In this document: positions 6,342 to 50,141 of the stretch, piece after piece
Layout: every line of letters starts with the position of its first letter
How positions within the stretch are numbered: position 1 is the stretch's first letter
Virus record (IMG/VR): IMGVR_UViG_3300045996_002376
Location: 1-50,141 of that record
Length of the DNA: 50,141 bases
Origin: a virus
Reading direction: 5' to 3' (one strand)
Notes under the pieces: generated by a model
Seen by the model: only the letters and a program-made list of their open reading frames with translations
Told to the model about the DNA's origin: nothing
Database searches by the model: none
Translations under genes and position numbers: made by a program

Positions 6342-6363
6342 GGTGTGCTCCTGGTGGTTCGGG

Positions 6364-6400: not shown

Positions 6401-6405
6401 GGTCT

Positions 6406-8077: not shown

Positions 8078-8253
8078 GCCGCCCTGCCCTTCCGCTCCTT
8101 GCGGGCGGCCAGGCGCTCGCACTCGTCATCCGGATGCGTGCCCTTCCCGAGCACGTCCCACAGATCCCCTCCACAGCCCCGGCACGTGGTGAACAGCGCC
8201 GCGAATTTGCCCCGCTCTGTGCGCACCCGGCGCGTGTTGAGGTAGGCGGGCAT
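8074..8253 (-). CDS. Small CxxC protein (59 aa)
   Basis: Unknown function. Basic protein with TTCRGCGGDLWD (one CxxC pair) and a later DDECERLAARKERKGR helix, suggesting a single zinc site with a basic tail. ATG 8253 overlaps the upstream stop base by base; the stop overlaps the DUF5131 start by 4 nt. Confidence 0.65.
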   Translation of the reverse strand: MPAYLNTRRVRTERGKFAALFTTCRGCGGDLWDVLGKGTHPDDECERLAARKERKGRAA

Positions 8254-9757: not shown

Positions 9758-9782
9758 GATCAGGATCTCCTTGGCGGTGAGG

Positions 9783-14759: not shown

Positions 14760-15155
14760 TCACAGGCGGTCCGGGTAGTCCGGCCCGGCCGCGGTACCGC
14801 CGCCGACGCGCAACGGCCGGCTCGGCGCGGACACCGGCGCCACGACGTTCTGGCGCACGAAGAACGCACCCAACGCCGACACGACCAGCACGACACCGGT
14901 CTCCAGCGTCGGATCCCAGTCCACACCCAGCGTGACGACGAGCGCGAAGACCGCCTTGATCGCGCCGATCAGCATGGGCAGCGCGCGCTCGGCGCTGACG
15001 AACGCCGCGGTGAGGAACCCACCGATCGCGACGGTCGCGGCGGTGGCAGCGCCGTGCACGGGCTCGTCGAGCCGCAGCGTGACGAGCACGCCGAGCATGA
15101 TGGCGACGAGCATCTCGAAGAACACGGCCGGCTCCCGGCCGAAGATCGTGCGCAT
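14760..15155 (-). CDS. Holin-like membrane protein
   Basis: 131 residues with three hydrophobic stretches: VFFEMLVAIMLGVLVTL (11-27), TAATVAIGGFLTAAF (38-52) and MLIGAIKAVFALVVTLGV (61-78), possibly a fourth at VVLVVSALGAFFV (88-100). Last gene of the late operon, overlapping the endolysin stop by one base (TGATG). Position and topology indicate a holin that would permeabilise the membrane for the amidase. It lacks the dual-start motif of lambda S. Confidence 0.7.
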   Translation of the reverse strand: MRTIFGREPAVFFEMLVAIMLGVLVTLRLDEPVHGAATAATVAIGGFLTAAFVSAERALPMLIGAIKAVFALVVTLGVDWDPTLETGVVLVVSALGAFFVRQNVVAPVSAPSRPLRVGGGTAAGPDYPDRL

Positions 15156-24800: not shown

Positions 24801-25593
24801 CGCGCGCGGGCTCGGCCAAGCCCGCGGTGGCCTTGGCCAGCTTCTCCGCGTCGCCCTCGGCGGCGGCCTTCATCGCCTCGCCCAAACCGGACACGCCGAT
24901 CTTCAGCGCGCCGACCGCCGCCTGACCCGCCACCAACGCGGCCGGCAGCACCAACCCGGCACCCGCGGCCGTCCCCAGCGCGCCACCCAGCGCCGCGACC
25001 ACCGGCACCGCCGTGCCGATCGCCGACACCCCGGACGCGACCTGATAGGCGGCCAGCGAGACGCCCAGGGCCTGGCGGCGGGCGTTGCCCAGCGACCGGG
25101 CCATGTTGTCGACGCCTTCGCCCTGCTGCCACAACTTCACCAGCGCCGACGTGCCGCGCTTCGCCGACGCTTCAAGCTCGTCCATCGCCGCCGTGTTGCG
25201 GCGTTGCGCGGCTTCCAACGCCGTCGCCGCGCGCGTGGCCGTGGTCTTCGCGTCCGCTGCGGCACGCGTCGCCTTCGACAGCCGTTCCTCGGCCGCCGTG
25301 AGCTGCGCCGCCGTGGTGTTGCCCTTCGTCCGGGCCTCGGTCAGCTTTTCCTCGGCGACCCGCACCGCGCCGGTGGCGTCCGCCTCGCGCTTGCGGGCCT
25401 TGTCGAGCTTGTCCGCCAGCGCCTGCACGTCGTCGGCGGCCTTGGACGCGGCCTGCTTGTCGACCTCCGGCACGATCCGTGCCGTGGCGTGGACGTCGAT
25501 CGCCTTCAACTCGGTCGCGGTGATCTTCTGAAACCCGCGCAAGGACGGGAGTAGTTGAACGTACGCAGCACCGGCGAGATAGCGAGGAGCCAA
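21883..25593 (-). CDS. Tape measure protein with LAS/M15-like peptidase motif
   Basis: 1236 residues; sets tail length (at about 0.15 nm per residue, near 185 nm). N-terminal coiled coil (25-150), long Ala/Gly/Val hydrophobic region, then repeated Trp-containing units (SWLWTNAISPALSAIGAALS, WLWTTVAMPVFAAIGAAVSA) at about 620-870. Near the C terminus H1097-x6-D1104 (YHGKGRAIDIGG) and H1153-x-H1155 (DHFDHVHWAF) give the H-x6-D / H-x-H zinc arrangement of LAS/VanY-type peptidases, which may help wall penetration. Start is TTG 25593 behind GAGGGGG; no ATG/GTG fits better, and YVQLLPSLRGF is a typical tape-measure start. Confidence 0.93.
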   Translation of the reverse strand: MAPRYLAGAAYVQLLPSLRGFQKITATELKAIDVHATARIVPEVDKQAASKAADDVQALADKLDKARKREADATGAVRVAEEKLTEARTKGNTTAAQLTAAEERLSKATRAAADAKTTATRAATALEAAQRRNTAAMDELEASAKRGTSALVKLWQQGEGVDNMARSLGNARRQALGVSLAAYQVASGVSAIGTAVPVVAALGGALGTAAGAGLVLPAALVAGQAAVGALKIGVSGLGEAMKAAAEGDAEKLAKATAGLAEPARAVVGEYVRMKPALDVLRLDVQGRLFAGVAAEVRTLGRDYLPMARTGLVEMAGAWNTAAKEAGGFLRQQQTLADVPLIFERSTVAVGNTVAATQPLLAILRDVVAVGAIVLADITGGFGGAAVGAAEFIAQARASGQLEGWIRSGFSALEQLGVLLGNVGSIVGAVFQAAQASSSGGLLDTVIQVTGAVAALLSSAQGQTALTTLFTTLHDVVQNLLPGVQAVAGALFSGIIALGPEVPALAAAFSVAAVAVAPLVTILGQLAAAVLPPLVALLAWLAPALPAIAVGFVAGALALKGYLIISKIVRFYQMWTASQVALNVAMGLNPIGIIVIAIAALVGAIVWIATQTTWFQDLWAVVWGGIQRAAVWVWENALKPAFDGIVTAVKAVGAAATWLWVNVLKPLFDGISLVARIAAAILITAFVLPAVFAFKLLAAIGMWLWEHALKYVFEAIGVAASWLWTTILSPVIGWIIAYVQAWGAVFSWLWTNAISPALSAIGAALSWLWTTVAMPVFAAIGAAVSALGSAFAFVWHNVIQPVWNALGAAISAVWETLIRPTFEAVKSAASTLGTVFDVAVNMIKTAWDRVYDILSAPIKWVIDVVYNNGIRAVWNKVAGLVGLGELAPINFGGGSANGGGRPMQHMAHGGVLPGYAPGVDSVPVLASPGEGWLVPEAVRGLGAGFVGWANRYFSGGRSDGGVGTGGPAGFSQGGVVQRFADGGIVGNLLGWMSGIGDDVASLWKDPIAYIKAQIGSTGWTDLVARTPGKLISSGADWLWNKIKASFGFASDEAAAAVAGAGGPGGTPMGWQSMWAIIRAAFPSATLNSSFRPGDPGYHGKGRAIDIGGPMGAINSWIAKVFPNSTQLIYTPGANILNGRPFTYDGPTQADHFDHVHWAFDQGGYLPPGYSTVYNGTGRPEPVLTDQQWRSMESVGSGGGRITGELAISGDGLTAYVDGRIEHYDQDSADALLRGTRI

Positions 25594-26804: not shown

Positions 26805-27467
26805 TCAGGTCAGCGCCGGGAAGCCCATGGCGACCAAGAGGCTCCGCCAGCCGGGGCCGCCGAAGTAGTGGCGCACGCTGTAGCCGGCCGTGGAGTCGAC
26901 CGCCGCCGACATCGTCATCTGGTAGGCCACCGGGTCGTCCCCGTCGGTCCACACCTGGTCACCGCGTTCCGTGACCGACGCCCGCGGCAACGACCGGCTC
27001 ACGTAGATCGCGTCCACACCGGAGCCGTCCACGAAGATCCCGTACGCCCGGTAGTACTTCGTCGACGGTCGGGTCGGCTGGGAGAACTGCACCTCGCCCG
27101 TGATCGCGGTCGGCGTCACGCCGGACAGGTCCACGTCGTAGTACATCTGCAGGCTCAGCAGCTTGGTCTCCTGCGCGGTGAACTGCAGGCCGTTGACGTC
27201 GGCGTTGATGTCGCGCCGGGTCGGGTCGAACGCACCCCACGACGTCACCTCGGACACCTCGGTCGAGCGGGACCAGGTGGCGCCGTCGTCCTTGGACACC
27301 CAGCCGATGTCCTCGTACCCGGTGGGCAGCGTGGCCAGGTCGGCGCTCGCGCCGGTGGTGAGGGTCGTGGGCAGCGTGCTGGACATCGGTGCGAAGAACA
27401 GCGACCCGGCCAGCGCCTTGCGGATCAGTTCGACCTGCTTGTTCGCCAGGTCCTCGTATGCGGGCAT
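26805..27467 (-). CDS. Major tail (tube) protein
   Basis: 220 residues. LATLPTGYEDIGWVSKDDGA, then VSEVTSWGAFDPTRRDINAD and GLQFTAQETKLLSLQMYY match the tail-tube pattern of actinophages (a beta sandwich that polymerises into hexameric rings). Gene order (after tail terminator, before chaperones and tape measure) agrees. Flanked by hairpins on both sides. Confidence 0.88.
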   Translation of the reverse strand: MPAYEDLANKQVELIRKALAGSLFFAPMSSTLPTTLTTGASADLATLPTGYEDIGWVSKDDGATWSRSTEVSEVTSWGAFDPTRRDINADVNGLQFTAQETKLLSLQMYYDVDLSGVTPTAITGEVQFSQPTRPSTKYYRAYGIFVDGSGVDAIYVSRSLPRASVTERGDQVWTDGDDPVAYQMTMSAAVDSTAGYSVRHYFGGPGWRSLLVAMGFPALT

Positions 27468-29094: not shown

Positions 29095-30039
29095 TCAGGC
29101 CATCGTGATCTTGACGGCGCGCACGAAGTCCGGGTCGGTGCCCACGTCCGCGCCGTCCGTGCCGTCGGCGACGATGTTCGTGCCGATGTAGGTGTCCACC
29201 AGCGACCGGTCCTGCACGTTGCGGAAGTCGTAGTCCCGCAGCCACCGCATCGCCAGACCCTGGAACGCCTGCGCCTGGCCGAACGTCGCACCCGACGGGA
29301 CCGCCGGGGCGCGCATGCCCAACACGTAGGCCGTGCGGTGGAACGCGAAGCCGACGTTCGCGGGCAGCGCGTTGGACACGTACACCGGGCCGAAGCCCGC
29401 CAGCCGGCCGATCTGCGCGTCCCGCAGGGCGCTGTCGGAGCCGGACTTGTCGACGTCCTTGAGCTTGTCGGACTTGAGGAACACGCCCTCCATGTCCGCG
29501 CCGACCACCAGGAACCGGTCGGTGCGCGGCACGTTGGCCTTGTTCAGGGCCACGTTCGCGTCGATCGCGGTCTTGGAGGGGTCGGTGGTGTCCAGGGTGA
29601 GCGTGGTGGCGTAGGTCGCGCCCACCATCTCCGCGACCACCGCGTTCTCGATGCCCTCGGCGACGGCCCGTACCTGCGGCGCGAGGATCTGCGTGCCGAA
29701 GTCGGTGATGTCGAGGGTGAGCTCCTCGTCGGTGATCGGCACCGCGTTGTACACGTCGGTGTCGAGCGTGACGTCGACCTTCGTCTCGGTCAGCTCGTCC
29801 ATCGTGATGATGCCGGTGCCCTCCGACGCCGCCCCGCGAGCGCCGCGCAGCACTCGCGTGCGCGCCTGCGTGCGGGCCGGGACGCGGATGGTGATGGTGT
29901 CGCCGGCCGCGCCGACGTAGTTGCCGCCGGTGCTCGCGCCCGCGTCGCGCCACACCAAGGCGGGGAGCACGATGTCGCGCTCCAGCAACCCCAGCGCGGC
30001 GGCCGCGATACGCGTCGCCTTCAGGAACGTGTTCGCCAC
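29095..30039 (-). CDS. Major capsid protein (P22 coat-like, HK97 fold)
   Basis: 314 residues. Opening MANTFLKATRIAAAALGLLE then DTITIRVPARTQARTR is characteristic of the P22-type coat family in actinophages. DVYNAVPITDEELTLDITDF, RTDRFLVVGADMEGVFLKSD and FAFHRTAYVLGMRAPAVPSG are further landmarks. Preceded by a scaffold gene and followed by connector genes. Self-assembles into the icosahedral shell. Confidence 0.92.
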   Translation of the reverse strand: MANTFLKATRIAAAALGLLERDIVLPALVWRDAGASTGGNYVGAAGDTITIRVPARTQARTRVLRGARGAASEGTGIITMDELTETKVDVTLDTDVYNAVPITDEELTLDITDFGTQILAPQVRAVAEGIENAVVAEMVGATYATTLTLDTTDPSKTAIDANVALNKANVPRTDRFLVVGADMEGVFLKSDKLKDVDKSGSDSALRDAQIGRLAGFGPVYVSNALPANVGFAFHRTAYVLGMRAPAVPSGATFGQAQAFQGLAMRWLRDYDFRNVQDRSLVDTYIGTNIVADGTDGADVGTDPDFVRAVKITMA

Positions 30040-31536: not shown

Positions 31537-32916
31537 CTACTCCCCGGCCAGACCGGTGGCTTGCTGCTCCAACCGGTCAGCCAACGTCACCAGCGGGTCG
31601 GCCACCTGCATCTTGGCCCACTCGTCGACGTCGGACTTCTCGACGCCGGGGATCATGCCCCACAGCGCGCGCTTCGGGATCTCCAACTGGTCGGCGAACT
31701 TCCCCAACGCGTCCGCGGCCTGCGCCAACGACCGGATGTCCATGTCCTGCCAGGTGACCCGGGCCATGACGTCGTTCGCGTCGTCCTCACGGCCCTCAAG
31801 ATGCGCCGCGAGCTGCAGCGACTGCACGTGCGAGGTGCCGGTGGTCTTCTCCCGCTCGTACACCTTCTGCCGCAACCCCGCCCTCGCCGCGGCCAGGGCG
31901 TCGGCGGAGAGGTTCACCAACTGGCCGGTCAGGGTGTGGGTGGGGGTCTGCGACACCGCCGCCAGCGCCTCGATGTCGGAGCGCCACGAGTTCACGAACG
32001 GATCCAGCGGCGTCTCGTCGAGCGTGCCGAACCGGGTGTCCTTGCTGGTGGACATGAGCATGTCGCCCTGCCGCAGCAGCAACGCCACCTTGTCCGCCTC
32101 GGCCTCGGTGTCCGGCTTCGCCATGCCGGTGGCAAAGCGGATCTTCCACGAGTTGAAGTGCTGCGCCAGCAGCCGGTCGTAGGCGGTCTTGTTGATCCGC
32201 TTCGCCGCCGGGATGAACGGCTTCACCTCGCCGTCGCTGCGCCCGTCGAGGTCGAGCATGTTCGCGTAGCGCACGAACGGCGTCACCCCCGCGCCGTGCG
32301 TGTCGTAGGAGATGTAGGTGATCCCGGAGCCGGACTTGTCGGACGACAGGTAGTGCACGTCCTGCTCGTCGTAGAGCCGCAGCATCAGTTTGTCGCCGGA
32401 CACCTCGACCTGCAGCACGAACATCGGCCAGTCGTCCTCGGCCGGGTCCTGGTACACCGCATAGGCCTTGCGCGGGGACACACCGCGCATCGACGCCGTC
32501 GGCTCACCACCCCACATGCCGGGCAGGACCCGCACGAACGCGTACCCGTAGGCCAGCATCGCCCGGTGCACCGCGATCTGCCGGTTGTCGAACTTGTTCG
32601 CCTTCCACGTGCGCCACGGACCCATCGGCGCCGGGTCATCGTCCTCGTCGTTCCCGCCGGGCGGATACAGCGGGGACCGGTAGGAGTCGACGTACATGCA
32701 CTGCGCAACGGTGGTGACCACCAGGTTCAGCCACGGCGTCTCCGACAGGTCCCGCAGCATGCGCAATTCGGGCGTCGTCTCGCGCGGCAGCGTCAACGGG
32801 TCAGGGGTCCACCGGTACCAGTTGTCGATCGTGTCCAACCGGTCCCGCTCGGCCTCCCAGCCGGGGAACAAGTCCCGCTTCACCAGGTCCACCACGGACT
32901 TCTGCGCCATCACCAC
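31537..32916 (-). CDS. Portal protein (SPP1 gp6-like)
   Basis: 459 residues. RMLRDLSETPWLNLVVTTVA, YVDSYRS, HRAMLAYGYAFVRVLPG, TPFVRYANMLDLDGRS and IEALAAVSQTPTHTLTGQLV are typical of the SPP1 gp6-like portal family. Forms the dodecameric DNA channel at the capsid vertex. GTG 32916, GTG 32913 and ATG 32910 are in frame; the GAGGGAGG upstream suits the first, but its spacing (11 nt) leaves the start uncertain by two codons. Confidence 0.92.
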   Translation of the reverse strand: MVMAQKSVVDLVKRDLFPGWEAERDRLDTIDNWYRWTPDPLTLPRETTPELRMLRDLSETPWLNLVVTTVAQCMYVDSYRSPLYPPGGNDEDDDPAPMGPWRTWKANKFDNRQIAVHRAMLAYGYAFVRVLPGMWGGEPTASMRGVSPRKAYAVYQDPAEDDWPMFVLQVEVSGDKLMLRLYDEQDVHYLSSDKSGSGITYISYDTHGAGVTPFVRYANMLDLDGRSDGEVKPFIPAAKRINKTAYDRLLAQHFNSWKIRFATGMAKPDTEAEADKVALLLRQGDMLMSTSKDTRFGTLDETPLDPFVNSWRSDIEALAAVSQTPTHTLTGQLVNLSADALAAARAGLRQKVYEREKTTGTSHVQSLQLAAHLEGREDDANDVMARVTWQDMDIRSLAQAADALGKFADQLEIPKRALWGMIPGVEKSDVDEWAKMQVADPLVTLADRLEQQATGLAGE

Positions 32917-32938: not shown

Positions 32939-34774
32939 TCAACGACCCCAGATCGTCCCGGCGTCCACCAGCTCCGGCTGCTCCACCTTGTTCAACACCA
33001 GCCGGCGCACCATCCCCGCGCCGACCATGCACACCGCCAGGTCGATCTTCTTCGAGGACTCCTTGGCGCCCTTCCACAGCGACACTCCGTACCGGTTCGG
33101 GTAGCGCTTGGCGTTGCGCACGTGCTGCCGCAACCTGCGGTCCCCGTCGTGCACCAACGCCCGCTCCTCGATCTCCGAGACCGTGCGCTCCGCGGCCGCC
33201 GTGAACTCCGCGACCCGCGCCGGAGAGGTCATGTCCCACATCACCGCGTGCCCGCTCTTGCCCGGCACCGCCCACACCCGCAACCGGGAGTGGTAGCGGC
33301 GATGCCACCGGTCGATCAGGTCGTCCCAGTAGCGTTCCTGCGTCTCGTCGTCCCGCGTGTGCGACGGGTCGGCGAAGAAACCCTGCACTTGGAAGTCCTC
33401 GAACACCGCGGCGACCCGCTGGTCCACGACCTCCCGCGGCGCCGTCCACGTCTCACCGCGACGCCCGGGCGGTTTCTGCCACAGCCCGAACACCACCCGC
33501 AGCCCGTCCGACAGGCGCGCACCGACCAGGCCGGTGGAGTCGTCGGACTTCGACCCGTCGAAGAACAGGGCGATCTCGTCACCCGGCATCAACGTCAGCA
33601 CGTCGGGGCCCGCTTCGCACAGGTCCCAGTCCTTCGGGTCGGCCCAGGCGTCCTCGTCGGCGACGATCTGGTTGAACCAGAACCGCCGACTCGTGGACAC
33701 GGCGTTGCGCTTGTCCAGGATCGACTTCACGATCCGCGCCAGCCGCAGCCACACCGAATCCCCACGCACCGACGCGATGACCTCGCCGATCACCTGCTGG
33801 ACCTGCTCCAGCGACGGCTCCTGCCCCTTCGGCAACCCCAACGCCGCCGCGATGCCATCCGGGGTGATCGGCGCGTCCGGCGCGGCCTCCAGCGAGTCGT
33901 ACAGCAGACCCGTGTCCGCCGCCGTGCCCGCCTGGACCTCCTCCCACACCTCCCGGTCGTGCTGCGCCACCGAGTCCTCGGACGGCTCGTAGGCGTTCGT
34001 GATCCGCAACGTCCGCGCCGCGCCGTCCGCCGACTTCGTGGCGTTACGCTCGATCACCTTCGCCATCTCGTGGCCCTGGTTCGACGCGTTCCAGTGCTGC
34101 GTCTCGTTCGGCAGCACGAACGTCGCCCGCGCACCCTCCAGCGTCTGAGGCGACGACGTCACCGCCTGGATGAGCCGCTCACCGCCCAGCCCGTAGACGG
34201 TCTCCTTGCCGATCTGCAGGTCGTACTCGGCTTTCGCCTCGTCGGTGAACAGCCGCGGGAACAGGCGAAACGTGTTCTTCGTCTGCTCCAGCGACACGGC
34301 GGCGGTCTGCACCCACGCGTCCGGGCAGTCCGTCGCGATCGGCTCGCCGTCGTCGTCCCAGCCCAGGAACCGGCAGGGCCCGAACGCCTCGACCCCGCAC
34401 AGGGTGGCACCGACCGGGTCCTTGCCCCATCCCTTCAACCGCTGCAGCACGCCATCGCGGTAAAGGAACTCGCCGTCGTCGTCGAGCGCGAACCAGTGCA
34501 GCACGAACCTGGCCTGCTCCAGCGTGTACCGCCACGGCTTCCCGCGCCCGTGCTGCAACCACACCCCGGTCCACCCCAGCACCGACCAGCCGAGGGTGCG
34601 CTCCGGCAACAGCCAATGCCCGTCCTCGGTGGTCTGCCACGTCGGCCCGATGATCGACGGTGCCCACCGGTAGGACTCGCGCGGCGGCGCCGGACGCGAC
34701 AACAGCGCCCGGTAGTGCTCGATGACAGGGGAGTACGGGTCGTCCTCGACAACGGCAGCGCGTCTACGCGCCAC
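32939..34774 (-). CDS. terL: Terminase large subunit
   Basis: 611 residues, GTG start. ATPase domain: LEQARFVLHWFALDDDGEFL, then KGWGKDP (114-120) as a variant Walker A in the form common to actinophage TerL, VSLEQTKNTFRLFPRLF and NETQHWNASNQGHEM. The RNase H-like nuclease begins at ALFFDGSKSDDSTGLVGARL with clustered Asp residues, followed by GFFADPSHTRDDETQERY. Drives DNA into the prohead and cuts it. Overlaps the small subunit gene by 11 nt. Confidence 0.93.
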   Translation of the reverse strand: MARRRAAVVEDDPYSPVIEHYRALLSRPAPPRESYRWAPSIIGPTWQTTEDGHWLLPERTLGWSVLGWTGVWLQHGRGKPWRYTLEQARFVLHWFALDDDGEFLYRDGVLQRLKGWGKDPVGATLCGVEAFGPCRFLGWDDDGEPIATDCPDAWVQTAAVSLEQTKNTFRLFPRLFTDEAKAEYDLQIGKETVYGLGGERLIQAVTSSPQTLEGARATFVLPNETQHWNASNQGHEMAKVIERNATKSADGAARTLRITNAYEPSEDSVAQHDREVWEEVQAGTAADTGLLYDSLEAAPDAPITPDGIAAALGLPKGQEPSLEQVQQVIGEVIASVRGDSVWLRLARIVKSILDKRNAVSTSRRFWFNQIVADEDAWADPKDWDLCEAGPDVLTLMPGDEIALFFDGSKSDDSTGLVGARLSDGLRVVFGLWQKPPGRRGETWTAPREVVDQRVAAVFEDFQVQGFFADPSHTRDDETQERYWDDLIDRWHRRYHSRLRVWAVPGKSGHAVMWDMTSPARVAEFTAAAERTVSEIEERALVHDGDRRLRQHVRNAKRYPNRYGVSLWKGAKESSKKIDLAVCMVGAGMVRRLVLNKVEQPELVDAGTIWGR

Positions 34775-35147
34775 GCTGCTTCCCGGTGCCCCAGCGTGCC
34801 TGCGCTGCCTTCCGTGCCGCCGACGACCGCTCCTCCTGCGACCTACCCGATGTGCCCGCGTCCTCCGGCAGCTTCAACGACGCGAACAACCGGGCCAGCG
34901 TGCCTCGATGCTGGCGGACCTCCGTCACCAGCGGCGACGCCACCGGCTGCCCCATCGATCCCTCGACCAGCAGATCGGAGCCCTGCAACGCCTGCTCCAG
35001 CCGCTCGATCAAGTCGATCTCGCGGCAGCAGTCCTCCAACACCCGCAGCTCGTCGGCCCGCAGGTCAAACTGGCTGGTGATGTCGTCCCACACCCGGCGG
35101 GACTTCGCGCCCAGGTTCGAGGGCCGGGCCGGCTTGGTGTTCGCCAT
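34764..35147 (-). CDS. terS: Terminase small subunit
   Basis: 127 residues. SNLGAKSRRVWDDITSQFDL, ELRVLEDCCREIDLIERLEQ and VTEVRQHRGTLARLFASLKL follow the P27-type small terminase of actinophages: N-terminal DNA-binding helices, a central oligomerisation helix pair and a basic C terminus. Directly upstream of terL. Recognises the packaging site, which is not located here. Confidence 0.85.
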   Translation of the reverse strand: MANTKPARPSNLGAKSRRVWDDITSQFDLRADELRVLEDCCREIDLIERLEQALQGSDLLVEGSMGQPVASPLVTEVRQHRGTLARLFASLKLPEDAGTSGRSQEERSSAARKAAQARWGTGKQRGA

Positions 35148-41378: not shown

Positions 41379-42161
41379 CTAGTCGAGTGGTACCTCGTAG
41401 ACGAGTTGGTAGCGCTCGCCGTTCATCACCATGTCGTTGATCTCCACCGGCCTGTCGGTCGTGTCGTAGGCGATCCGGGTCACCTCGAACACCGGCGAGC
41501 CCGACTGGATGCGGAGCAGTTCGGCTTCCTCGGGCGACGCGGGGCGAGCGGAAACGTACTCGACCCCGTGGTGGAGGCGATACCCGAGACCGTCGAGCAG
41601 GGCGTAGGACCCACCCTTGCCGGTGTCGACCTCTTCGATGCGCGAACCGATGGTGATGCTGCGAGGCAGGCGTGATGTTGCGAGCTGTACGGGCACGCCG
41701 TCCGCGCTCATGACCCGCGACCGGACGGTCACCTCGTCGCCGACGTTGATGTCGAGCGCTGCGGCTGTGCGTTCGTCAGCGTGCTCGAAGGAGACCGTGG
41801 TTTGGCTGTTGGCCGTGAAGCCGCTGTAGATGGCGTCCCCCATGAATGCGCCTTGGTCGATGTCACGGCGGGCGCGTCTGAGGCGGTCCAGGCCGCGACG
41901 TTGGACGGTCGGGCGCTCACGCACGAACACCCCGGCGCCGGCACGTCCTTCGATAAGCCCTTCGTCGCGTAGGACGTTGAGGGCGTTCTGGACGGTCTGG
42001 TTGGACACGCCGAAGCGATCTTTGAGTGCCGCCGTGCTGGGGAGTTGATGCCCAGGGCGGTACTCGCCGGACCGGATGGCCGCGCGCAGCTCATCGGCTA
42101 CGCGGCGAGTGCGCGCACCGCGGGCTGGCTTGTTCTCGTTGGCGTCTTCTCCCACCTGCAC
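41379..42161 (-). CDS. GntR-family regulator (HutC/UTRA type)
   Basis: 260 residues. N-terminal winged helix: RRVADELRAAIRSGEYRPGH, QLPSTAALKDRFGVSNQTVQ, NALNVLRDEGLIEGRAGAGV. C-terminal UTRA effector domain: VQLATSRLPRSITIGSRIEE, YVSARPASPEEAELLRIQSG, PVFEVTRIAYDTTDRPVEI. GntR repressors of this kind (KorSA, TraR, KorA-type) control transfer genes of actinomycete plasmids. GTG 42161 lies directly beside operator-like repeats, so it is probably autoregulated and represses the divergent module. Confidence 0.9.
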   Translation of the reverse strand: MQVGEDANENKPARGARTRRVADELRAAIRSGEYRPGHQLPSTAALKDRFGVSNQTVQNALNVLRDEGLIEGRAGAGVFVRERPTVQRRGLDRLRRARRDIDQGAFMGDAIYSGFTANSQTTVSFEHADERTAAALDINVGDEVTVRSRVMSADGVPVQLATSRLPRSITIGSRIEEVDTGKGGSYALLDGLGYRLHHGVEYVSARPASPEEAELLRIQSGSPVFEVTRIAYDTTDRPVEINDMVMNGERYQLVYEVPLD

Positions 42162-42163
42162 AG

Positions 42164-42232
42164 GCTAGATCTTTCCAGCTAGGTCTTGCGACTCCTGCAT
42201 CACCTGCTACATTCCTTACCAGACAGGTCTTA
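42164..42232. promoter_or_regulatory. GntR operators flanking plus-strand promoter
   Basis: GCTAGATCTT (42164-42173) and GCTAGGTCTT (42178-42187) are direct repeats with a 14-bp period. AGAC-AG-GTCT (42221-42230) is a dyad. Between them lies a promoter: -35 TTGCGA (42186-42191), 16 bp, extended -10 TGCTACATT (TACATT at 42208-42213), with the predicted start near 42220. Repressor bound at either element would block it. Confidence 0.6.
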
Positions 42233-42261
42233 CCGGAGAGGCTTCGACCAACGGAGAGCAG

Positions 42262-42468
42262 ATGACCACCGACGCCGACCCCGAGACGTTGATCCCGGTC
42301 ACCGAGCTCGCCAGGCAGGTGCGGGTGCACCGCACGACGATCTACCGCTACATCCGGCTCGGACTGCTTCCGGCCCACCGCATCGGCATCGGCAAGGGCA
42401 CCCTCCGCGTCGCGGAGAAGGACTGGGATGCCTACCTCGCCGCCTGCCGCGAAGCCGCCACCCCCTAG
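42262..42468 (+). CDS. Excisionase/AlpA-like HTH protein (68 aa)
   Basis: LIPVTELARQVRVHRTTIYR then YIRLGLLPAHRIGIGKGTLR and VAEKDWDAYL form the MerR-like fold of Xis proteins (HTH plus wing). ATG 42262 follows GGAGAG. First gene of the transfer-like module; in integrative conjugative elements such a gene often pairs with int, but the only integrase here is 28 kb away, so a regulatory role is equally possible. Confidence 0.8.
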   Translation: MTTDADPETLIPVTELARQVRVHRTTIYRYIRLGLLPAHRIGIGKGTLRVAEKDWDAYLAACREAATP

Positions 42469-42535
42469 ACCCGTGTCGCGCCTGGCGCCCCCGAACCCGG
42501 GCGCGGCACGGCCCACCAACCCGAAGGAGGACGAC

Positions 42536-42994
42536 GTGCGCATGACCCCCGAACTTCACCTAGGCCGCGTCGCCTACCACGAGCTCGCGCATGCCGTCGT
42601 CGCCCTCCACTTCACCGACCTGGGACTTGAGGTCGAGGGCTGCACCCTCACCCCCACCGGTAACAGTCGCTACACGGGCGTCACCGGCGTCGACTCTCCC
42701 GAGTGGGAAGACGACCGGGAGGTCGCCGACGCCCTCGTCACCGTCTACGCCGCCGGCGCGGTGGGTGCCCGCCGCTACCTCACCGGAGCCGGTATCCGCA
42801 ACGCCCGTTGGTGGGCTGAACGCAGCGCTTGGCACGACGAGCAGGCGTTCAACCTCATCGCCCGGTACAGCTCCCTCACCTGGGACGCGGCGACCGAATC
42901 AGCCGAACTCGTCCTCACCGACGCCTGGCTTCGGGTTGAGAAGGCCGCAACCAGGTTGACCACCGACATGCACCTGCCCGCACACCTCATCTGA
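42536..42994 (+). CDS. Stand-alone HExxH peptidase-like protein 1 (152 aa)
   Basis: YHELAHAVVALHF gives H15-E16-x-x-H19, followed by Asp101 in SAWHDEQAFNLIARY, which matches the third zinc ligand region of FtsH-type (M41) peptidases. The family's AAA+ ATPase and membrane helices are absent, so this is a solitary protease domain. The Gly-rich GGRxAEE segment is degenerate (AAGAVGARRY). GTG 42536 is 5 nt after AAGGAGG and is preferred to ATG 42542. Activity unproved. Confidence 0.7.
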   Translation: MRMTPELHLGRVAYHELAHAVVALHFTDLGLEVEGCTLTPTGNSRYTGVTGVDSPEWEDDREVADALVTVYAAGAVGARRYLTGAGIRNARWWAERSAWHDEQAFNLIARYSSLTWDAATESAELVLTDAWLRVEKAATRLTTDMHLPAHLI

Positions 42995-43031
42995 TCCGCC
43001 GATCACCACCACTGCACCGGAGGACACCGAG

Positions 43032-43265
43032 ATGGACTACCTCGACGCCGCCGTCGGCAGCGACAACCTGCTCACGAACCTCGCCCGACACACCCCCGAG
43101 AGGCCCGAGCAGCTCAGGTCCACGGCGGAGCAGCTCACCAAGTACGCCGCGATGCTCGCCACCCAGCCCGGCTACGGGGAGAAGGTCGCGAACCTCACCG
43201 CCCTCGCCCAGACATACCTCGCCCTGGCCGGGTCGACCACGTCCAGCCCGCAGCACACCCCCTGA
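43032..43265 (+). CDS. Small helical protein between two peptidases (77 aa)
   Basis: Unknown function. LDAAVGSDNLLTNLARHTPE, QLRSTAEQLTKYAAMLATQP, KVANLTALAQTYLALAG: three helices. Good GGAGG 8 nt before ATG 43032. Its place between two HExxH genes suggests a substrate, inhibitor or adaptor; no direct evidence. Confidence 0.65.
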   Translation: MDYLDAAVGSDNLLTNLARHTPERPEQLRSTAEQLTKYAAMLATQPGYGEKVANLTALAQTYLALAGSTTSSPQHTP

Positions 43266-43345
43266 TCCCCGGTCGGGGCGGGACGCCTCCCCCTCGACTC
43301 CCGCCCCGACCGGGCACCAACCAGCCACCACCTGGAAGGACTGCC

Positions 43346-43828
43346 GTGACGACCGTCGTGGCCACACCCACAGCAGAAGTAGCCCACCGGCTTGCCCCGT
43401 ACCGACAGTCCGCGGCCCACCACGAAGCCGGACACGTCGTCATCGGCGCACTGCTGGGCGACCCGGTCGACCGCGTCGACATCTGGTACATGCGTGACCG
43501 CGGCTGGCTGCGCGGAGAGACCTGGTCCGTCACCGGCGTGACGGAGGTTGACGTCGTCGACGCAACCCACGGGCTGCTGGTCGCTGTCGCCGGTGCGGTA
43601 GCCGAAGCCCGCTGGAGCGGCCGCCCGCTGCACGCCACGCAGGCCGCCAACCCCAGCGACAAGGCCGCCGTCACCCACTACCTCCCCGACGCCGACCTCG
43701 ACGAGCGTGTCGCCGCCGCCCACGTGGACGGATGGCTCCTCGACTACTGGGCGTCGGTGTCCGCGGTAGCCGAAGCCCTCATCGAGTACGGGTCGCTGTC
43801 CGCCGCCGATCTGTCCCGCCTCCTCTGA
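43346..43828 (+). CDS. Stand-alone HExxH peptidase-like protein 2 (160 aa)
   Basis: SAAHHEAGHVVIGALLG carries H26-E27-A-G-H30, identical to the FtsH (M41) active-site motif. AGAVAEARWSG corresponds to the family's GGRAAEE region and NPSDKAAVTHYL provides Asp105 as a possible third ligand. Again no AAA+ or membrane part. GTG 43346 follows GGAAGGA. Related to the 42536 product only in the active-site layout, so an old duplication or independent recruitment. Confidence 0.75.
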   Translation: MTTVVATPTAEVAHRLAPYRQSAAHHEAGHVVIGALLGDPVDRVDIWYMRDRGWLRGETWSVTGVTEVDVVDATHGLLVAVAGAVAEARWSGRPLHATQAANPSDKAAVTHYLPDADLDERVAAAHVDGWLLDYWASVSAVAEALIEYGSLSAADLSRLL

Positions 43829-43845
43829 CCTCTGGAGACCACACG

Positions 43846-44742
43846 ATGTTCGCGCGTACGCGCACCGACGACCGCTCCGCACGACGCTGGCCCCGCGCCG
43901 CCGTCTGGGGTGGCGCAATCGCCTCCACCGCGATGAACCTCTCGGCGAACTGGCACGCGACCACCGTCCGCGGCGTCACCACGTTCGTCGCACCGACCGC
44001 CAACGGCCTGCACCTGCCCGAGGTGACCAAGCTCGTCGTGTCGGCCGCGTTCCCCCTGCTGCTGATCTTCGCGGTGGAGTCGGCGGCACGCACGAGCCTG
44101 CGGTTCCGGTTCGGCGACCTCGGGTCGTACGCGATGCCGCTCGGCGCGCTGACGGTGTTCGCGTTCTCGGTGGGCGAGGTGACCCGGCTGCTGCTGGGCA
44201 TGGGCATGCCCCCTCATCTCGCGGCGCTGTTCGCGTTGGCCCCGGACATCCTCATCACCGCCGGGACGGTCGTGCTGATGCGTGAGCGCGCGGTGCTGCG
44301 CCAGACGGTGGCCACACCGTCGGCGCCGATCGTCGACCACTCGGTGTGGGACGTGGACATCGACGACCCGGCCCTGCCCGTCCCGACCACCTACCTGAAG
44401 GCCGTCCCGGTCGTTGCGGCGAAGGAGCCGCCCGTCCCGGTCGAGCAGGAGGACGTCCCGGCATCCCGGGAGCAGACGGCGGACGTCCCGCCTCCGAAGC
44501 CCCGGACCAAGACGTCGGCCGCGTCCCACCCGACTCGTCCCGCCCGCACGGTCGTGGCGATGTCCACCGCCGAGGACGACGCCCCGCTGATCGCCGACAT
44601 CACCAGGTACCGGGACGCCAACGGCGGGTCGTGGCCGACCGCGCACCACTGCAAGAAGAACTTCGCGACGTCCCACCGCCGGGCGTCCCGCGTCCTGGCT
44701 GCCATGCGGAGTGAGACGTCCCTGGTGGAGGTGGCGGGATGA
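43846..44742 (+). CDS. DUF2637 membrane protein with C-terminal wHTH-like domain
   Basis: 298 residues. Four membrane helices at about 20-150: VWGGAIASTAMNLSANW, LVVSAAFPLLLIFAVESA, YAMPLGALTVFAFSVGEVTR and LAALFALAPDILITAGTVVL, the DUF2637 (SpdB-like) arrangement of actinomycete plasmids. A Val-Pro-rich linker follows, then ADITRYRDANGGSWPTAHHC with FATSHRRASRVLAAMRSETS, a winged-helix-like end. Probably part of the membrane complex for intermycelial DNA spread. The linker DNA is dense in CGTCCC. GGAG precedes ATG 43846. Confidence 0.8.
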   Translation: MFARTRTDDRSARRWPRAAVWGGAIASTAMNLSANWHATTVRGVTTFVAPTANGLHLPEVTKLVVSAAFPLLLIFAVESAARTSLRFRFGDLGSYAMPLGALTVFAFSVGEVTRLLLGMGMPPHLAALFALAPDILITAGTVVLMRERAVLRQTVATPSAPIVDHSVWDVDIDDPALPVPTTYLKAVPVVAAKEPPVPVEQEDVPASREQTADVPPPKPRTKTSAASHPTRPARTVVAMSTAEDDAPLIADITRYRDANGGSWPTAHHCKKNFATSHRRASRVLAAMRSETSLVEVAG

Positions 44743-45906
44743 GCACCTCCACCCCGGGACGTCCCACCCCGCCCGCCGGGACGCCGCGTCCCGGCCCCGG
44801 CGTCCCGCCCGTCCCACCGCCTGGCCGTCCCGCGGCGTCACCCCCGCGTCCCGGGACGGCCTTCCCGGGGACGCCCCGTCCCGCGCCCGCCTCCCCCGTG
44901 GAGGACGCGGGCGGGGCGTCCTCCCTTCCGCAGATCACGACCAGCGGTGTCGACCCGCGCGTCCTGGCGTGGGCGCTGGGAGTCCCGCTGCTCGTCGCCG
45001 TCGCGGTCGCCGCCTGCGTGTGGCTGCCCGCGGCTGCGGCGTGGTCGGTGCTGGCCGTGCTGCTCGCCGCCGCCGGTCTGGCTGTCCTGCGCGGCCGGGG
45101 ACGTTCCGGTCCGGGACGGTTCGGGCGGCGTCGCGCCGGTGGTGTGTTCGGGGGGCGTCCCGGCCGTTCGGCGGGCGGGCGTCCTAGTGGGCGTGGTCTG
45201 CTCGGCAAGCTGACGCGTCCCGGTGCGGGGCGTCCCGGTGGCGGGCGCGGGCGGGACGGGCGGTTCGCGCGTCTCGGTCGCAACCTGGCGTCCCGCGCGT
45301 CCCGAAGGTTCCCGCGCGCGGCCGCGGCGGGACGTGCGGCGGCGGGACGCGCCCGCGCCGCCGTGGCCGGGACGCGGGGACGTCTGCCGCGCGCGCTGGG
45401 TGGGACGCGTCCCGCCGGGACGTCCCGCGGTGCGTCCCGGGGCAGGCGTCCCGGTGGTCGTCCCGGTGGGCGTCTCGGGTCGGTCGCGTCCCGCCTGACC
45501 GGGGGACGTCTCGGCCGGACGTCCCGCCGCAACGGGGGACGTCCGGGCGGGACGTCGAGCACCGGGACGTCACGCCGGGGGACGCGTCCCGGGAGTGGCT
45601 CGTCGGGAACGTCCCGCCGTCCCGGTTCGCGCGGCGGACTGCTCGGTCTGCTGGGCGTCCCGGGACGCGAGCAGGGGCGGGGTGGAGCGGTCGCGGCGAC
45701 CGACGGCGACATGACCGGCGGGACCTCCCGCCCCCCGGACGCCGCCACCCCGGGGGGCGTCACCCCGGACGACCCGGAGCGGGACGGCCCCCTGCCCGAC
45801 GACGAGGACGAAGGCCGGGACGTCTCGGGGCTGTCGCGGTGGCAGCGCTGGGGCTACGGCCTCGCCGACCGGCTGCAGTCCGCCGACCCACGCCGCTGGT
45901 GGGACG
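44348..45906. repeat. Dense GGGACG/CGTCCC motif cluster (57 copies)
   Basis: I count 57 copies of GGGACG or its complement CGTCCC in about 1.56 kb, one per 27 bp, against roughly 3 expected from composition (my estimate). They occur in both orientations and in all three codon phases (as Arg-Pro, Val-Pro, Gly-Thr, Gly-Arg, Ala/Thr-Ser-Arg), and form palindromes: GGGACGTCCC at 44756 and 45417, GGGACGCGTCCC at 45402 and 45579, CGTCCCGGGACG at 44847 and 45656. The following FtsK-type gene (2 kb) has a single copy. Phase independence argues for selection on the DNA itself, for example recognition sites of the downstream motor. Confidence 0.8.
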
Positions 45907-46559
45907 CGTTCATCGAACCCGCGAAACCCGCACCGCCGGACCTGACCCCCTACGACACCGACGACGACGAGCCGCCCGGGCGGCTACCACCTGGGGTGCT
46001 GCCGGACGAAGTGCCGCCGGCGCCGACGTGGCCCTCGGTCGACGAAGACGACCCGCAACGGGACGCCCCTCCCTGGCCCGACCTCGACCCCGACCCCGAA
46101 GGCCCGCCAGCCGTCGAGCCAAGACCAGAGGACGACGAGGAAGACGAGGTCGAACCGGCGTCGTCCCACCCCTCACCTCACGTCTCACCTCACCCGCGTG
46201 AGCAGCACCAACCGCATCCGGAACCGATCACCACAGGGAGCGCCACCATGGCAGTCGACGCCAGCCAGTACACCGAGAACATCGACCTTTCCACCCCTGA
46301 GAGCCGCTTCTCCAGCTGCATGACCGCAGCCGAGCGGGCCCGGACCGACGCCGCCCGCTGCGAGCGCGAGGCGCAGGAGTTCTTCGACGAGGCCGCCAAG
46401 CTCGACACCGTGCCCGGCTCCACGGCAGAGGCCGCCCGGCTGCGCCGCGAGGCCGAGTCGCTGAAGGAGGACCGTGACCGGCGCCGTGCGATCGCCGCCG
46501 GGCTGGAGAAGCGGGCCGGTGCGGCGCCGCAGCCGGTGACGGCCGGGACGACGAGGTGA
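44739..46559 (+). CDS. SpdB-like membrane protein, G/R-rich, acidic tail and coiled coil (606 aa)
   Basis: Pro-rich residues 1-65; two membrane helices at about 76-96 and 97-117; a very basic Gly/Arg/Ser region at 118-330 encoded by the GGGACG-rich DNA; an acidic Asp/Glu/Pro region at 335-490; and a coiled coil at 504-606. The frame is uninterrupted. No recognised domain beyond a resemblance to Spd (spread) proteins. Basic region may bind DNA at the membrane. A second start at 46248 with its own AGGGAG could make the last 103 residues separately. ATG 44739 overlaps the DUF2637 stop by 4 nt. Confidence 0.65.
   Translation: MSTSTPGRPTPPAGTPRPGPGVPPVPPPGRPAASPPRPGTAFPGTPRPAPASPVEDAGGASSLPQITTSGVDPRVLAWALGVPLLVAVAVAACVWLPAAAAWSVLAVLLAAAGLAVLRGRGRSGPGRFGRRRAGGVFGGRPGRSAGGRPSGRGLLGKLTRPGAGRPGGGRGRDGRFARLGRNLASRASRRFPRAAAAGRAAAGRARAAVAGTRGRLPRALGGTRPAGTSRGASRGRRPGGRPGGRLGSVASRLTGGRLGRTSRRNGGRPGGTSSTGTSRRGTRPGSGSSGTSRRPGSRGGLLGLLGVPGREQGRGGAVAATDGDMTGGTSRPPDAATPGGVTPDDPERDGPLPDDEDEGRDVSGLSRWQRWGYGLADRLQSADPRRWWDAFIEPAKPAPPDLTPYDTDDDEPPGRLPPGVLPDEVPPAPTWPSVDEDDPQRDAPPWPDLDPDPEGPPAVEPRPEDDEEDEVEPASSHPSPHVSPHPREQHQPHPEPITTGSATMAVDASQYTENIDLSTPESRFSSCMTAAERARTDAARCEREAQEFFDEAAKLDTVPGSTAEAARLRREAESLKEDRDRRRAIAAGLEKRAGAAPQPVTAGTTR
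46171..46195. repeat. Tandem CTCACCTCAC repeats upstream of motor gene
   Basis: CCTCACCTCACG followed by TCTCACCTCACC, two 12-bp units. The same unit (TCTCAT/CCTCAC) recurs twice directly and twice inverted just after the FtsK-type gene at 48593-48686. Here it encodes part of the acidic region (SPHVSPH). Confidence 0.55.
46248..46559 (+). CDS. Possible nested gene: coiled-coil protein (103 aa)
   Basis: In-frame ATG 46248 preceded by AGGGAG at 46235-46240, a better ribosome binding site than many starts in this window. The product would be AVDASQYTENIDLSTPESRF plus a charged coiled coil (ARCEREAQEFFDEAAKLDTV, AEAARLRREAESLKEDRDRR). It would be produced in addition to, or instead of, the end of the 606-aa protein. 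Confidence 0.5.
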   Translation: MAVDASQYTENIDLSTPESRFSSCMTAAERARTDAARCEREAQEFFDEAAKLDTVPGSTAEAARLRREAESLKEDRDRRRAIAAGLEKRAGAAPQPVTAGTTR

Positions 46560-48589
46560 CCCCCCGCGGCGGGTCCGCCCGTGTTTCCGCTGGTGGCGGA
46601 GTCAGTGTGAAGACGGTCGCCGTGCTCGGCGGACTGGTCGCCACCGTCTGCCTCACCCTGGTGGCGGTGGCGACGGACCCGCCGCGGTGGCTGTTGGTCG
46701 TCGTTGCCCTTGTGGTCGGCGTCGGGCTGGCCGGCGCCGGGCACTGGGTGATGGTCGACGCCGACGCCCTGGTGGAGATCCCGACCGGGCAGCGGCGTTG
46801 GATGGCGCACCTGGTCGCCGTCGCCGTGGTCGCGCACATCGCCTGCCTGGTGGTGTTCACGCTGGTCGAAGGTCTGCGCTGGCAGATCGCCGCGGCGTTG
46901 GCCTGCCTGGTGGTGCTGGAGTGGCTGGTGGCGGTGGTGTGGAACTGGACGCTCGCCCACGTACGCCCCCGGCCGCACGCCGAGGTTGTGCCGTTCGTTC
47001 CCGACGTCGAACCCGACCCCGCTCCCGAGCAGTCGCTGGAAGCCACGTTCCACCGTGCCCTCGCCTTGGAGGGCTTGCAGTACGTGCAGGTCATCCGCGC
47101 CACCGAACTGCCCTACGGCGCCTCGTTCACCTGCCGCACCCCCTCCGCGTTGGCTGCCGCGGCCGGCGGAAAACCGGCCAAGGTCGCCCCGCTGACGAGC
47201 GACGACGCCGACCGCATCGGCAACGCGCTGATGGAGGAGACCGGTATTCCGATCCAACGCGGCTGGGTCCAGGTGACCGACGAGCCCTATCCGAACGTCG
47301 TCACCGTCACCGTCACCACCCAGGACGTGCTCGCCATGGCCCACCCCTACCCGCTGGAGGAGGAACCGCTGCCGCCCGGCGCGCCGGCGACGATCGGGTT
47401 CCGCATCGACGGCGCCCCGATCGAGCTCAACGTCCACCAGCACGGCATCGTCGTGGGCAAGACCCGCTCCGGGAAGACGTCGCTGGTCAACGTGGTGCTC
47501 GCGGAGTTGATGCGCATGCCGGGCCGCAAGCAGCTGTGCGGCGCGGAGAAGGTGTACGACCTGGCCGGGCAGTGGCTGGACCCGCACTTGGGGACCGACA
47601 ACCCGCTGCCGCTGGACTGGGTACGAGAAGGACAGGACGACACCCTGGCGCTGCTCGTCGAGGGCATGAGGGAGGCGCGGTGGCGGCAGAACCTGCCGCA
47701 CGCGGACCGCGTCGGCCTGGACCCGCTGTGGATCGTGGTCGAGGAAGCCCCGCGAGTGCTCAAGGACCGGACACGCAAGGCATGGTTCGAGGGCCGCTGG
47801 TATGTGGCCACCGAGCTGGTGGCGCACATGATGCGCTCTACCGCCAGCTCCGGGGTGTTCCTGATCCTGCTGGCCCAGGAGTACGACAACGCGATGTTCG
47901 GCGACGACGCCGCGTCGATCAAGGCCAACACCGGCTACACGATCCTCATGCGGTCCAAGGACGGCGACGAGCGGAGCAGGGCGTTCGGTGCGGGCGGGGC
48001 GAAGCTGCCCAACCTGTACAACGCGGGCGAGTTCTACATCGAGGACGGCTCGGCGCCCTACCGCGGCAAGGCCCGCTACATCCAGGAGGTGGATGCGCGG
48101 ATGCGGCGGTTGCACGACGGGGCGACCCTGACCGATGTGACGGTGTCCCGGTCCCGGCTGGTTTCCGCTCTGACCGGGGGCCGCACGGCGCCTCCGACTG
48201 AGCTGTACGCGTCCCGTCCGACCCGCATGACCAGCTCTTATCGGGAGTATCTGCGTGGCATCGGCCGGGGGGACACCCCCGAACCGGAGCCGTTGGAGGC
48301 GTCGGTGGAGCGGGAGTTGGATGCGGTGTTCGCCCAGCTGGAGACCGGTGGCGCCGCGACACCGGAGACCCGGGTGGAGCTCTCCGATGTGCCTCCGGCC
48401 AAGCGGACGCTGCTGGACCGCATCGTGGAGGTGGTCACCGAGCAGGGGCCGATCGCCCGCCGGGAGGTGCTGTCCGCGCTGCAGGCGGGCGGTGCCGTGA
48501 CCGAGTCGAGCATGGACAACGCCCTGTCGAAGCTGGTGTCCCGTGGTCAGCTGGCTCGCACGCAAGAGGGTGTGTACTCGCTGCCCTGA
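46556..48589 (+). CDS. FtsK/SpoIIIE-type DNA translocase, TraB-like
   Basis: 677 residues. Four N-terminal membrane helices at about 18-38, 44-64, 83-103 and 108-130. Motor domain: Walker A VGKTRSGKTSL (300-310), Walker B PLWIVVEEAPRVL (390-402), then LILLAQEYDNAMFGDDAASI as the downstream FtsK motif. The C-terminal 60 residues (RIVEVVTEQGPIARREVLSA, SSMDNALSKLVSRGQLARTQ) are a winged helix, the position used by TraB/FtsK-gamma to read repeated DNA sites. In actinomycete plasmids such a protein alone transfers double-stranded DNA between mycelia. GTG 46556 overlaps the previous stop by 4 nt. Confidence 0.9.
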   Translation: MTPRGGSARVSAGGGVSVKTVAVLGGLVATVCLTLVAVATDPPRWLLVVVALVVGVGLAGAGHWVMVDADALVEIPTGQRRWMAHLVAVAVVAHIACLVVFTLVEGLRWQIAAALACLVVLEWLVAVVWNWTLAHVRPRPHAEVVPFVPDVEPDPAPEQSLEATFHRALALEGLQYVQVIRATELPYGASFTCRTPSALAAAAGGKPAKVAPLTSDDADRIGNALMEETGIPIQRGWVQVTDEPYPNVVTVTVTTQDVLAMAHPYPLEEEPLPPGAPATIGFRIDGAPIELNVHQHGIVVGKTRSGKTSLVNVVLAELMRMPGRKQLCGAEKVYDLAGQWLDPHLGTDNPLPLDWVREGQDDTLALLVEGMREARWRQNLPHADRVGLDPLWIVVEEAPRVLKDRTRKAWFEGRWYVATELVAHMMRSTASSGVFLILLAQEYDNAMFGDDAASIKANTGYTILMRSKDGDERSRAFGAGGAKLPNLYNAGEFYIEDGSAPYRGKARYIQEVDARMRRLHDGATLTDVTVSRSRLVSALTGGRTAPPTELYASRPTRMTSSYREYLRGIGRGDTPEPEPLEASVERELDAVFAQLETGGAATPETRVELSDVPPAKRTLLDRIVEVVTEQGPIARREVLSALQAGGAVTESSMDNALSKLVSRGQLARTQEGVYSLP

Positions 48590-48592
48590 GGC

Positions 48593-48686
48593 GTCTCATC
48601 TCACCTCTCATCTCACGTGCGGGGACAGACGTCTACCTGCACGGATGGGGGGTTTGTCGGTGGTGAGGTGAGAGGTGAGATGAGAC
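48593..48686. repeat. 24-bp inverted repeat after the FtsK-type gene
   Basis: Arms 48593-48616 and 48663-48686 are complementary at 23 of 24 positions. Each arm is itself two 12-bp units of the TCTCATCTCACC type. Between them, 48617-48642 holds a second imperfect dyad with AGACGTCT at its centre. It starts 4 bp after the stop codon. Could be a transfer or replication site, or a large hairpin in the transcript. Confidence 0.65.
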
Positions 48687-48720
48687 GAGGGCCCCGCACC
48701 GGGCTGGTGCGGGGCCCTCG
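48686..48720. terminator. Bidirectional terminator after transfer module
   Basis: Perfect 15-bp arms 48686-48700 and 48706-48720 (core GGGCCCCGCACC/GGTGCGGGGCCC) with a 5-nt loop, between the convergent FtsK-type gene and the 48733 gene. Confidence 0.8.
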
Positions 48721-49789: not shown

Positions 49790-50038
49790 TCAGGTCTGGC
49801 CGGGCATGGCGGTGCCGTGCACCTGGCCCGCGGGTGGGGGGTAGAGCAGCGGGAGCAGCTGCTCGTCGGGTACGTCGATCACGACTGCGGCGGTGGCGTG
49901 TGCCCCGCCGCGTTCCTCCGCGCAGGCGTCGCGCCAGCCCTGCGGGTTGGCCTGCACCATGGCGTCGTCCCACGCGTCGACGAGGTACGGCCGGTCGGGG
50001 CTGTCGGGTTCGGCGGCGATCAGGGCGTGGATCTTCAC
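49790..50038 (-). CDS. Hypothetical protein (82 aa)
   Basis: Unknown function. KIHALIAAEPDSPDRPYLVD, AWDDAMVQANPQGWRDACAE, AAVVIDVPDEQLLPLLYPPP: a small alpha/beta protein of the type found in actinophage early operons. GTG 50038 overlaps the upstream stop by 4 nt. Confidence 0.7.
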   Translation of the reverse strand: MKIHALIAAEPDSPDRPYLVDAWDDAMVQANPQGWRDACAEERGGAHATAAVVIDVPDEQLLPLLYPPPAGQVHGTAMPGQT

Positions 50039-50141
50039 CCGGTCACCGCCGCGGGCTTGATGACGCGCGGCAGGTGGACGTGCAGGTGCTCCACCTCGGC
50101 CGGTCGGCCGCCTGCAGTCAGGGTGCGGGCCAACTCCTCGG
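50035..50141 (-). CDS. 3' end of a gene cut by the right edge
   Basis: Thirty-four C-terminal codons ending at TGA 50037-50035: EELARTLTAGGRPAEVEHLH then VHLPRVIKPAAVTG. Codon bias is normal and the stop overlaps the next start (GTGA), so it is a real gene in the same minus-strand operon. Function not recognisable from this fragment. Confidence 0.65.
   Translation of the reverse strand, partial: EELARTLTAGGRPAEVEHLHVHLPRVIKPAAVTG

Follow-up and report, generated by a model that had tools for sequence, protein, structure and literature searches.

A candidate TraB-type DNA transfer cassette in a lineage of temperate actinomycete siphoviruses

The IMG/VR record IMGVR_UViG_3300045996_002376, analysed here at its full length of 50,141 bases and referred to below as the window, is a whole virus record with a G+C content of 70% and represents the nearly complete genome of a temperate phage, probably from a soil actinomycete. 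Our interest is in a set of genes at 41379-48589, which resembles the transfer region of Streptomyces conjugative plasmids and encodes an FtsK-like ATPase that we call TraB. We read this region, with a probability of about 0.6, as a cassette for TraB-type transfer of double-stranded DNA that is a resident and exchangeable part of a temperate actinomycete siphovirus lineage, working by the pumping mechanism proposed below. Five other phage records, which we designate G001, G002, G003, G011 and G012, carry such a cassette. What can be read from the sequences themselves is which genes are present, that their place in the phage is fixed, that arrays of short repeats accompany them, and that the motif of an array goes with the type of TraB.

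The cassette and its TraB-like ATPase

The cassette is a plus-strand cluster, together with a divergent regulator gene, and on the circle it separates the early genes from the terminase region. Its features, and those directly adjoining it, are:

41379-42161, minus strand: GntR/UTRA regulator in a KorA/KorSA-like position, divergent from the cassette (Pfam UTRA 1.2e-28, GntR 3.1e-18)
42262-42468, plus strand: Xis/AlpA-type helix-turn-helix (HTH) protein, the first gene of the cassette (HTH_17 2.9e-9; PHROG excisionase 4e-10)
42473-42994, plus strand: small protein with a HELAH motif in its translation (Pfam M41 E 0.017, below cut-off)
43032-43265, plus strand: small open reading frame (gene call; no Pfam or PHROG family match)
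43346-43828, plus strand: small protein with a HEAGH motif (Pfam M41 5.5e-4, below cut-off; 32% identity to G002_32)
43846-44742, plus strand: DUF2637-like membrane protein (25% identical to G011_76)
44262-46544, no strand assigned: cluster of 46 copies of CGGGACG/CGTCCCG, candidate clt or TraB recognition array (from counts, log-likelihood ratios and synonymous shuffles)
44739-46559, plus strand: SpdB-like Arg/Gly/Pro-rich membrane protein of 606 aa (homologues G002_35 and G011_75), which carries most of the repeat array
46556-48589 (alternative start 46607), plus strand: TraB/FtsK-type DNA translocase of 677 aa (41-46% identical to the G001, G002 and G011 proteins)
48592-48687, no strand assigned: inverted repeat directly 3' of traB, with 25-bp arms that are 96% complementary and a 46-nt loop
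48733-49023, minus strand: conserved small gene adjoining the cassette (76% identical in G012, 42% in G002)

The window TraB combines an FtsK-like ATPase with an intact Walker A motif (GKTRSGKT), predicted N-terminal membrane helices (AlphaFold, low confidence) and a C-terminal winged helix that is confidently modelled (AlphaFold pLDDT 83-89), as is expected of TraB-type proteins. Comparison of its profile with the FtsK-like gp71 of the Streptomyces plasmid-phage pZL12 gave an alignment over 435 columns that includes the winged helix (hhalign probability 94, E 1e-7), and the orthologue in G001 passes the FtsK cut-off of Pfam with 25.4 bits. A preliminary description of this DNA, made from the sequence alone, had named an FtsK/TraB motor here, and on the strength of the Walker A motif, the orthologue and the pZL12 alignment we agree, even with the window protein itself below the cut-off.

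The same description listed a GntR regulator, an Xis-like protein, a DUF2637 protein and an SpdB-like protein. The first two are secured by the Pfam and PHROG matches above, so that the Kor-type GntR regulator of actinomycete TraB-type transfer systems is present; the GntR/UTRA regulator is matched by a homologue of 58% identity at the corresponding position of G003, and homologues of the HTH protein are found in G002 and G003. The other two labels are less secure. The DUF2637-like protein of the window has no Pfam match of its own, but its counterparts in G002 and G003 score 19.7 and 21.3 bits, just under the 22.8-bit cut-off, which leaves the label plausible, not proven. The SpdB-like label is drawn from position, a hydrophobic stretch and an Arg/Gly/Pro-rich composition; the window protein has no family match in Pfam. 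The list was also incomplete, having left out the two small HExxH proteins and the small open reading frame.

Related phages and plasmids

Direct searches with TraB or terminase were used to find relatives, which sort into two TraB types. The window, G001, G002 and G011 share the first type; the second (type B) is found in G003 and G012, whose proteins are 68% identical to each other, that of G003 being 26% identical to the window protein. The preliminary description had suggested a search for related phages with the same module, and the gene maps of all five records obtained place the cassette correspondingly, next to a regulator gene (GntR or another) and with the early genes to one side and the terminase to the other. 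Two of these records have terminal overlaps of the kind that closed or terminally redundant genomes would show (141 bp, exact, in G002; 233 bp at 99.6% identity in G011), so that in them cassette and virion genes lie on one molecule. That the module sits inside a phage genome, as first described, is borne out by this recurrence. Most tail and connector genes of the window have counterparts in G012, identical mostly at 71-97%, yet the TraB types of the two differ; shared structural genes, with different TraB lineages at one place, indicate that the cassette has been exchanged. No traB was seen in four further structural relatives (G004, G007, G008 and G009), and the gene is intact in all six phages that have it, the window included. 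A putative att site in G003, made up of a 12-bp end repeat and, next to the integrase, what resembles the 3' end of a tRNA, is too short to rely on.

The phage genes of the window were assigned by PHROGs matches:

14760-35147, minus strand: siphovirus late operon, also with profile matches for head protease, tail terminator and tail protein
34764-35147, minus strand: small terminase
32939-34774, minus strand: large terminase
31537-32916, minus strand: portal
29095-30039, minus strand: capsid
26805-27467, minus strand: major tail protein
21883-25542, minus strand: tape measure
15155-16108, minus strand: endolysin
12797-14047, plus strand: tyrosine integrase (PHROG integrase 3e-44; 66% identical in G012)
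3961-11196, minus strand: early genes, with DnaB-like helicase, replication initiation protein, RecT-like, exonuclease VIII and repressor-like matches

Terminase, portal, capsid, tape measure, lysis genes and integrase, the set expected of a temperate siphovirus, are thus all present, and the late operon, integrase and replication genes confirm that phage genes flank the cassette on both sides. No partition genes were noticed among the PHROGs-annotated genes of the window, though replication genes are there. The earlier statement that the phage genome is complete is not borne out. The record is linear and lacks terminal repeats, and its right end truncates g83 (50035-50141, minus strand), whose remnant is 72% identical over 29 aa to the C-terminus of the 137-aa homologue in G003 (homologues are 137-140 aa). 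Circular closure of the window was considered and rejected, given that there is no terminal repeat and that joining the ends does not complete g83; a gene cut at the end with no remainder at the other points to a genome that is near-complete, not closed.

Beyond these phages, a parallel is offered by pGBA129-24a of Actinoalloteichus (NZ_CP016078.1), a closed 59.4-kb circle on which a full set of phage genes, among them terminase, portal, capsid, tape measure and holin, is joined by a distant traB homologue, 25% identical to the window protein over 39% of TraB. As in the window, a G-rich motif cluster adjoins traB, here with no significant order in the orientation of its copies; unlike the window, a recombinase-family gene is annotated in place of the tyrosine integrase. 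PLSDB lists this molecule as a non-mobilizable plasmid only. Phage genes occur together with a traB relative also on pAmyja1 of Amycolatopsis japonica and on a plasmid of Streptomyces anulatus. These two plasmids are circular, of ∼90 kb, and carry phage structural genes and the TraB relative; they too are typed non-mobilizable in PLSDB. Other relatives are on molecules where phage genes were not seen: a 19-kb ParA/GntR element with a distant traB in G209, and pAS20800 of Amycolatopsis, in the part viewed (∼12 kb unviewed). Contig 1 of G209 contains head-to-tail repeats of a 19,058-bp unit that carries ParA, GntR and traB; it probably represents a small plasmid whose assembly came out as a concatemer. 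The presence of TraB relatives on plasmids both with and without phage genes supports a plasmid origin of the cassette and exchange between phages and plasmids. In G535, contig 7 belongs to a phage from a different lineage, with genes for terminase, portal, capsid and tape measure, and a traB 32% identical to that of the window lies beside its tail genes. A scan of GTDB genome contigs gave no close relatives of the window TraB, and type-B TraB had no match in 394 genomes sampled from the class, nor in 354 of one family.

Repeats beside traB

The preliminary description had missed both the repeat array at 44262-46544 and the inverted repeat at 48592-48687. CGGGACG occurs 65 times in the window, with 46 of the 65 copies inside the 2.3 kb of the array; the 46 copies in a 3-kb region compare with 1.2 expected, a contrast that overstates significance, as do all such single-motif counts, in that the motifs are the most clustered 7-mers and were picked after looking. 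The comparison with relatives that lack traB used the same motif selection: the cluster scores a log-likelihood ratio of 62 in the window, against 14-24 in phages of the same lineage without traB, and an unrelated Streptomyces phage scores 14. Fifth-order Markov simulations reached no more than 12 (ten simulations of the window) and no more than 18 (simulations of three genomes). Copies in the window array lie in all reading frames and on both strands. The 606-aa SpdB-like gene holds 37 copies, where synonymous codon shuffling gives 6.6 +/- 2.4 and none of 2000 shuffles reaches the observed number, and the DUF2637-like gene holds 9, where shuffling gives 1.8 (0/2000). For the gene at the DUF2637 position in G001, taken alone, the motif excess is not significant (91 of 2000 synonymous shuffles).

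The relatives have clusters of other motifs: CGGGAGG in G001 and G002, CGGGCGG in G011, CGGGTAC in G003 and GGGGATC in G012. The cluster in G011 is weaker and is outranked in that genome by the top cluster, another repeat at 26.8 kb. In G003 a noncoding stretch of 249 bp is filled by 13 copies, all oriented alike; G012 has 6 copies in 152 bp, and its array runs through noncoding DNA. No comparable array was found in the four structural relatives that lack traB. Dense AAACCCTGCA-type repeats, perhaps replication iterons, occur near the early genes at ∼38.0 kb in G002 and ∼26.8 kb in G011.

In Streptomyces, TraB binds short clt repeats located in or beside tra, and these repeats vary from plasmid to plasmid (PMC4170104, PMC3583192). 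Short repeats of the clt type are what we find, at the level of sequence, beside traB. Their position, their length, their dependence on the presence of traB and their covariation with TraB type make a cis-acting transfer site (clt) the best reading of the array.

In all five relatives the motif copies are oriented outward from a motif-free centre of ∼300-500 bp, with permutation p values, from tests that are not fully independent given the relatedness of the phages, of 0.009 (G001), 0.001 (G002), 0.0008 (G011), 0.033 (G003) and 0.002 (G012). By analogy with FtsK, such a divergent orientation may let motors load and pump outward from the centre.

The inverted repeat directly 3' of traB is found in near-identical form in G001, G002 and G011, which are also the only matches to its 26-base arm pattern in the viral collection. 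The sequence of its loop is conserved too, though the window has it in the opposite orientation (0/500 shuffles). It may be a terminator, a recombination site or a transfer site. The type-B phages G003 and G012 have a different inverted repeat (TGACCTGCG.. / ..CGCAGGTCA) with TGCAAG/ATGCA repeats 3' of traB. On pGBA129-24a, too, ACCTGC / GCAGGT lies 3' of traB.

Mechanism, alternatives and significance

The mechanism that we propose is as follows. In the lysogen, the GntR repressor would keep the cassette off. On release, the membrane-anchored, FtsK-like TraB would assemble into a hexamer at the short G-rich repeats arrayed beside its own gene, recognising them by its C-terminal winged helix, and would pump the excised circular phage DNA, uncut, through a hyphal septum or cell contact, while the small membrane proteins would aid spread within the mycelium. 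Repression, TraB binding, hexamer formation and transfer are the steps we infer. An elaboration of this mechanism, which we offer tentatively and would not ourselves bet on, is that these are phages with two transmission routes in which TraB reads polar sites in two opposed blocks; two motors could then pump the uncut circle outward, and the motif would co-evolve with TraB during exchange between phages and plasmids.

Several results weigh against reading the region as a transfer cassette or add nothing in its favour. The window TraB scores only 16.5 bits for FtsK in Pfam, below the 24-bit cut-off, and a tblastn comparison with 50,697 phage records gave it no match. Its full-length AlphaFold model is poor (pLDDT 44), too poor for a structure search, and Foldseek and VIA-align with the C-terminal domain returned generic winged-helix matches only; the absence of FtsK gamma from the matches listed is uninformative either way. 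A sequence search against solved structures found nothing significant, the best match (0.03) being an FtsK/SpoIIIE entry. The window array has a best split that is likewise divergent, but its right half is mixed and p is 0.07, and extended 8-bp forms of the motif regained no clear polarity. The window record is open at both ends. Finally, pZL12 has no comparable array beside its ftsK-like gene.

Set against known systems, the cassette resembles the TraB/clt systems of pIJ101, pSVH1, pJV1 and pWTY27, which also have a single FtsK-like transfer protein, a GntR regulator and short repeats (their clt) in or beside tra, and whose Spd-type membrane proteins may have counterparts in the DUF2637-like and SpdB-like proteins. 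It differs from them in being in a phage, in an array that is far larger (tens of copies over 2 kb), in the opposed orientations around a centre seen in the five relatives, and in a TraB only distantly related to that of pIJ101. Actinomycete integrative and conjugative elements, to our knowledge, carry no virion genes, whereas the PHROGs matches place virion genes in the window; elements of the pSAM2 type otherwise share with it an integrase, an Xis-like protein, replication genes, an FtsK-type Tra and a KorSA-type GntR regulator (PMC3218068). The precedent for joining phage and transfer genes is pZL12 (phage ZL12, NC_013420), which is reported to be conjugative and is kept as a circular plasmid; it too has GntR, membrane protein and FtsK-like genes near virion genes, the FtsK-like gene being related to that of the window. 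It is larger, at 90 kb, and its FtsK-like protein is beyond the reach of tblastn and was found by profile only. The combination is therefore already precedented; what appears to be new is a siphovirus lineage in which TraB cassettes are exchangeable and the arrays are large and specific in motif, a combination that we did not find in the open-licence literature searched, itself weak evidence. As the window has an integrase and no partition genes were noticed in it, it could be called an integrative prophage carrying a transfer cassette just as well as a phage-plasmid.

Four other explanations were considered. The one that we take most seriously, though we think it unlikely, is that the translocase serves maintenance, moving or segregating phage DNA within one mycelium (spread, spore partition or clearing of dimers) with no transfer from strain to strain. 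Relatives of FtsK/SpoIIIE work at septa, arrays in opposed orientation resemble polar loading sites, the SpdB-like and DUF2637-like membrane proteins fit spreading functions, and the lack of noticed partition genes would suit such a role; yet a non-phage relative of TraB sits on a plasmid with its own ParA, and conjugation of pZL12 reportedly needs the tra gene and its neighbours. It is improbable that the arrays merely reflect low-complexity coding sequence for an Arg/Gly/Pro-rich protein and do not serve as binding sites. The window array does lie largely inside the SpdB-like reading frame, but the spread of copies over frames and strands, the synonymous shuffles and the passage of the G003 and G012 arrays through noncoding DNA all argue otherwise. 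Less probable again is a relic, a plasmid fragment acquired by the phage whose function has been lost: the cassette is accessory and structural relatives manage without it, but traB is intact in every phage that has it, an array and motif are maintained with each TraB type, and the place of the cassette is constant while its alleles exchange. We give hardly any credence to two separate neighbours, the case that the preliminary description had set against itself, in which one contig would span both a phage and a plasmid integrated next to it. The open-ended window record leaves room for this, but cassette and phage genes are arranged alike in five other records, two with terminal overlaps, and the closed circular pGBA129-24a holds both gene sets.

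If the transfer cassette is functional, phages of this lineage could carry lysogeny from one mycelium to another with no need for lysis or receptors, and host DNA might be mobilised by TraB as well. The papers on phage-plasmids consulted here treat conjugation by way of relaxase and oriT, and this framing, together with the PLSDB entry of the traB-bearing pGBA129-24a as non-mobilizable, suggests that transfer by a single protein is easily overlooked in phages. The differing motifs of otherwise similar phages would also provide a natural set for studying how an FtsK-type motor reads DNA.

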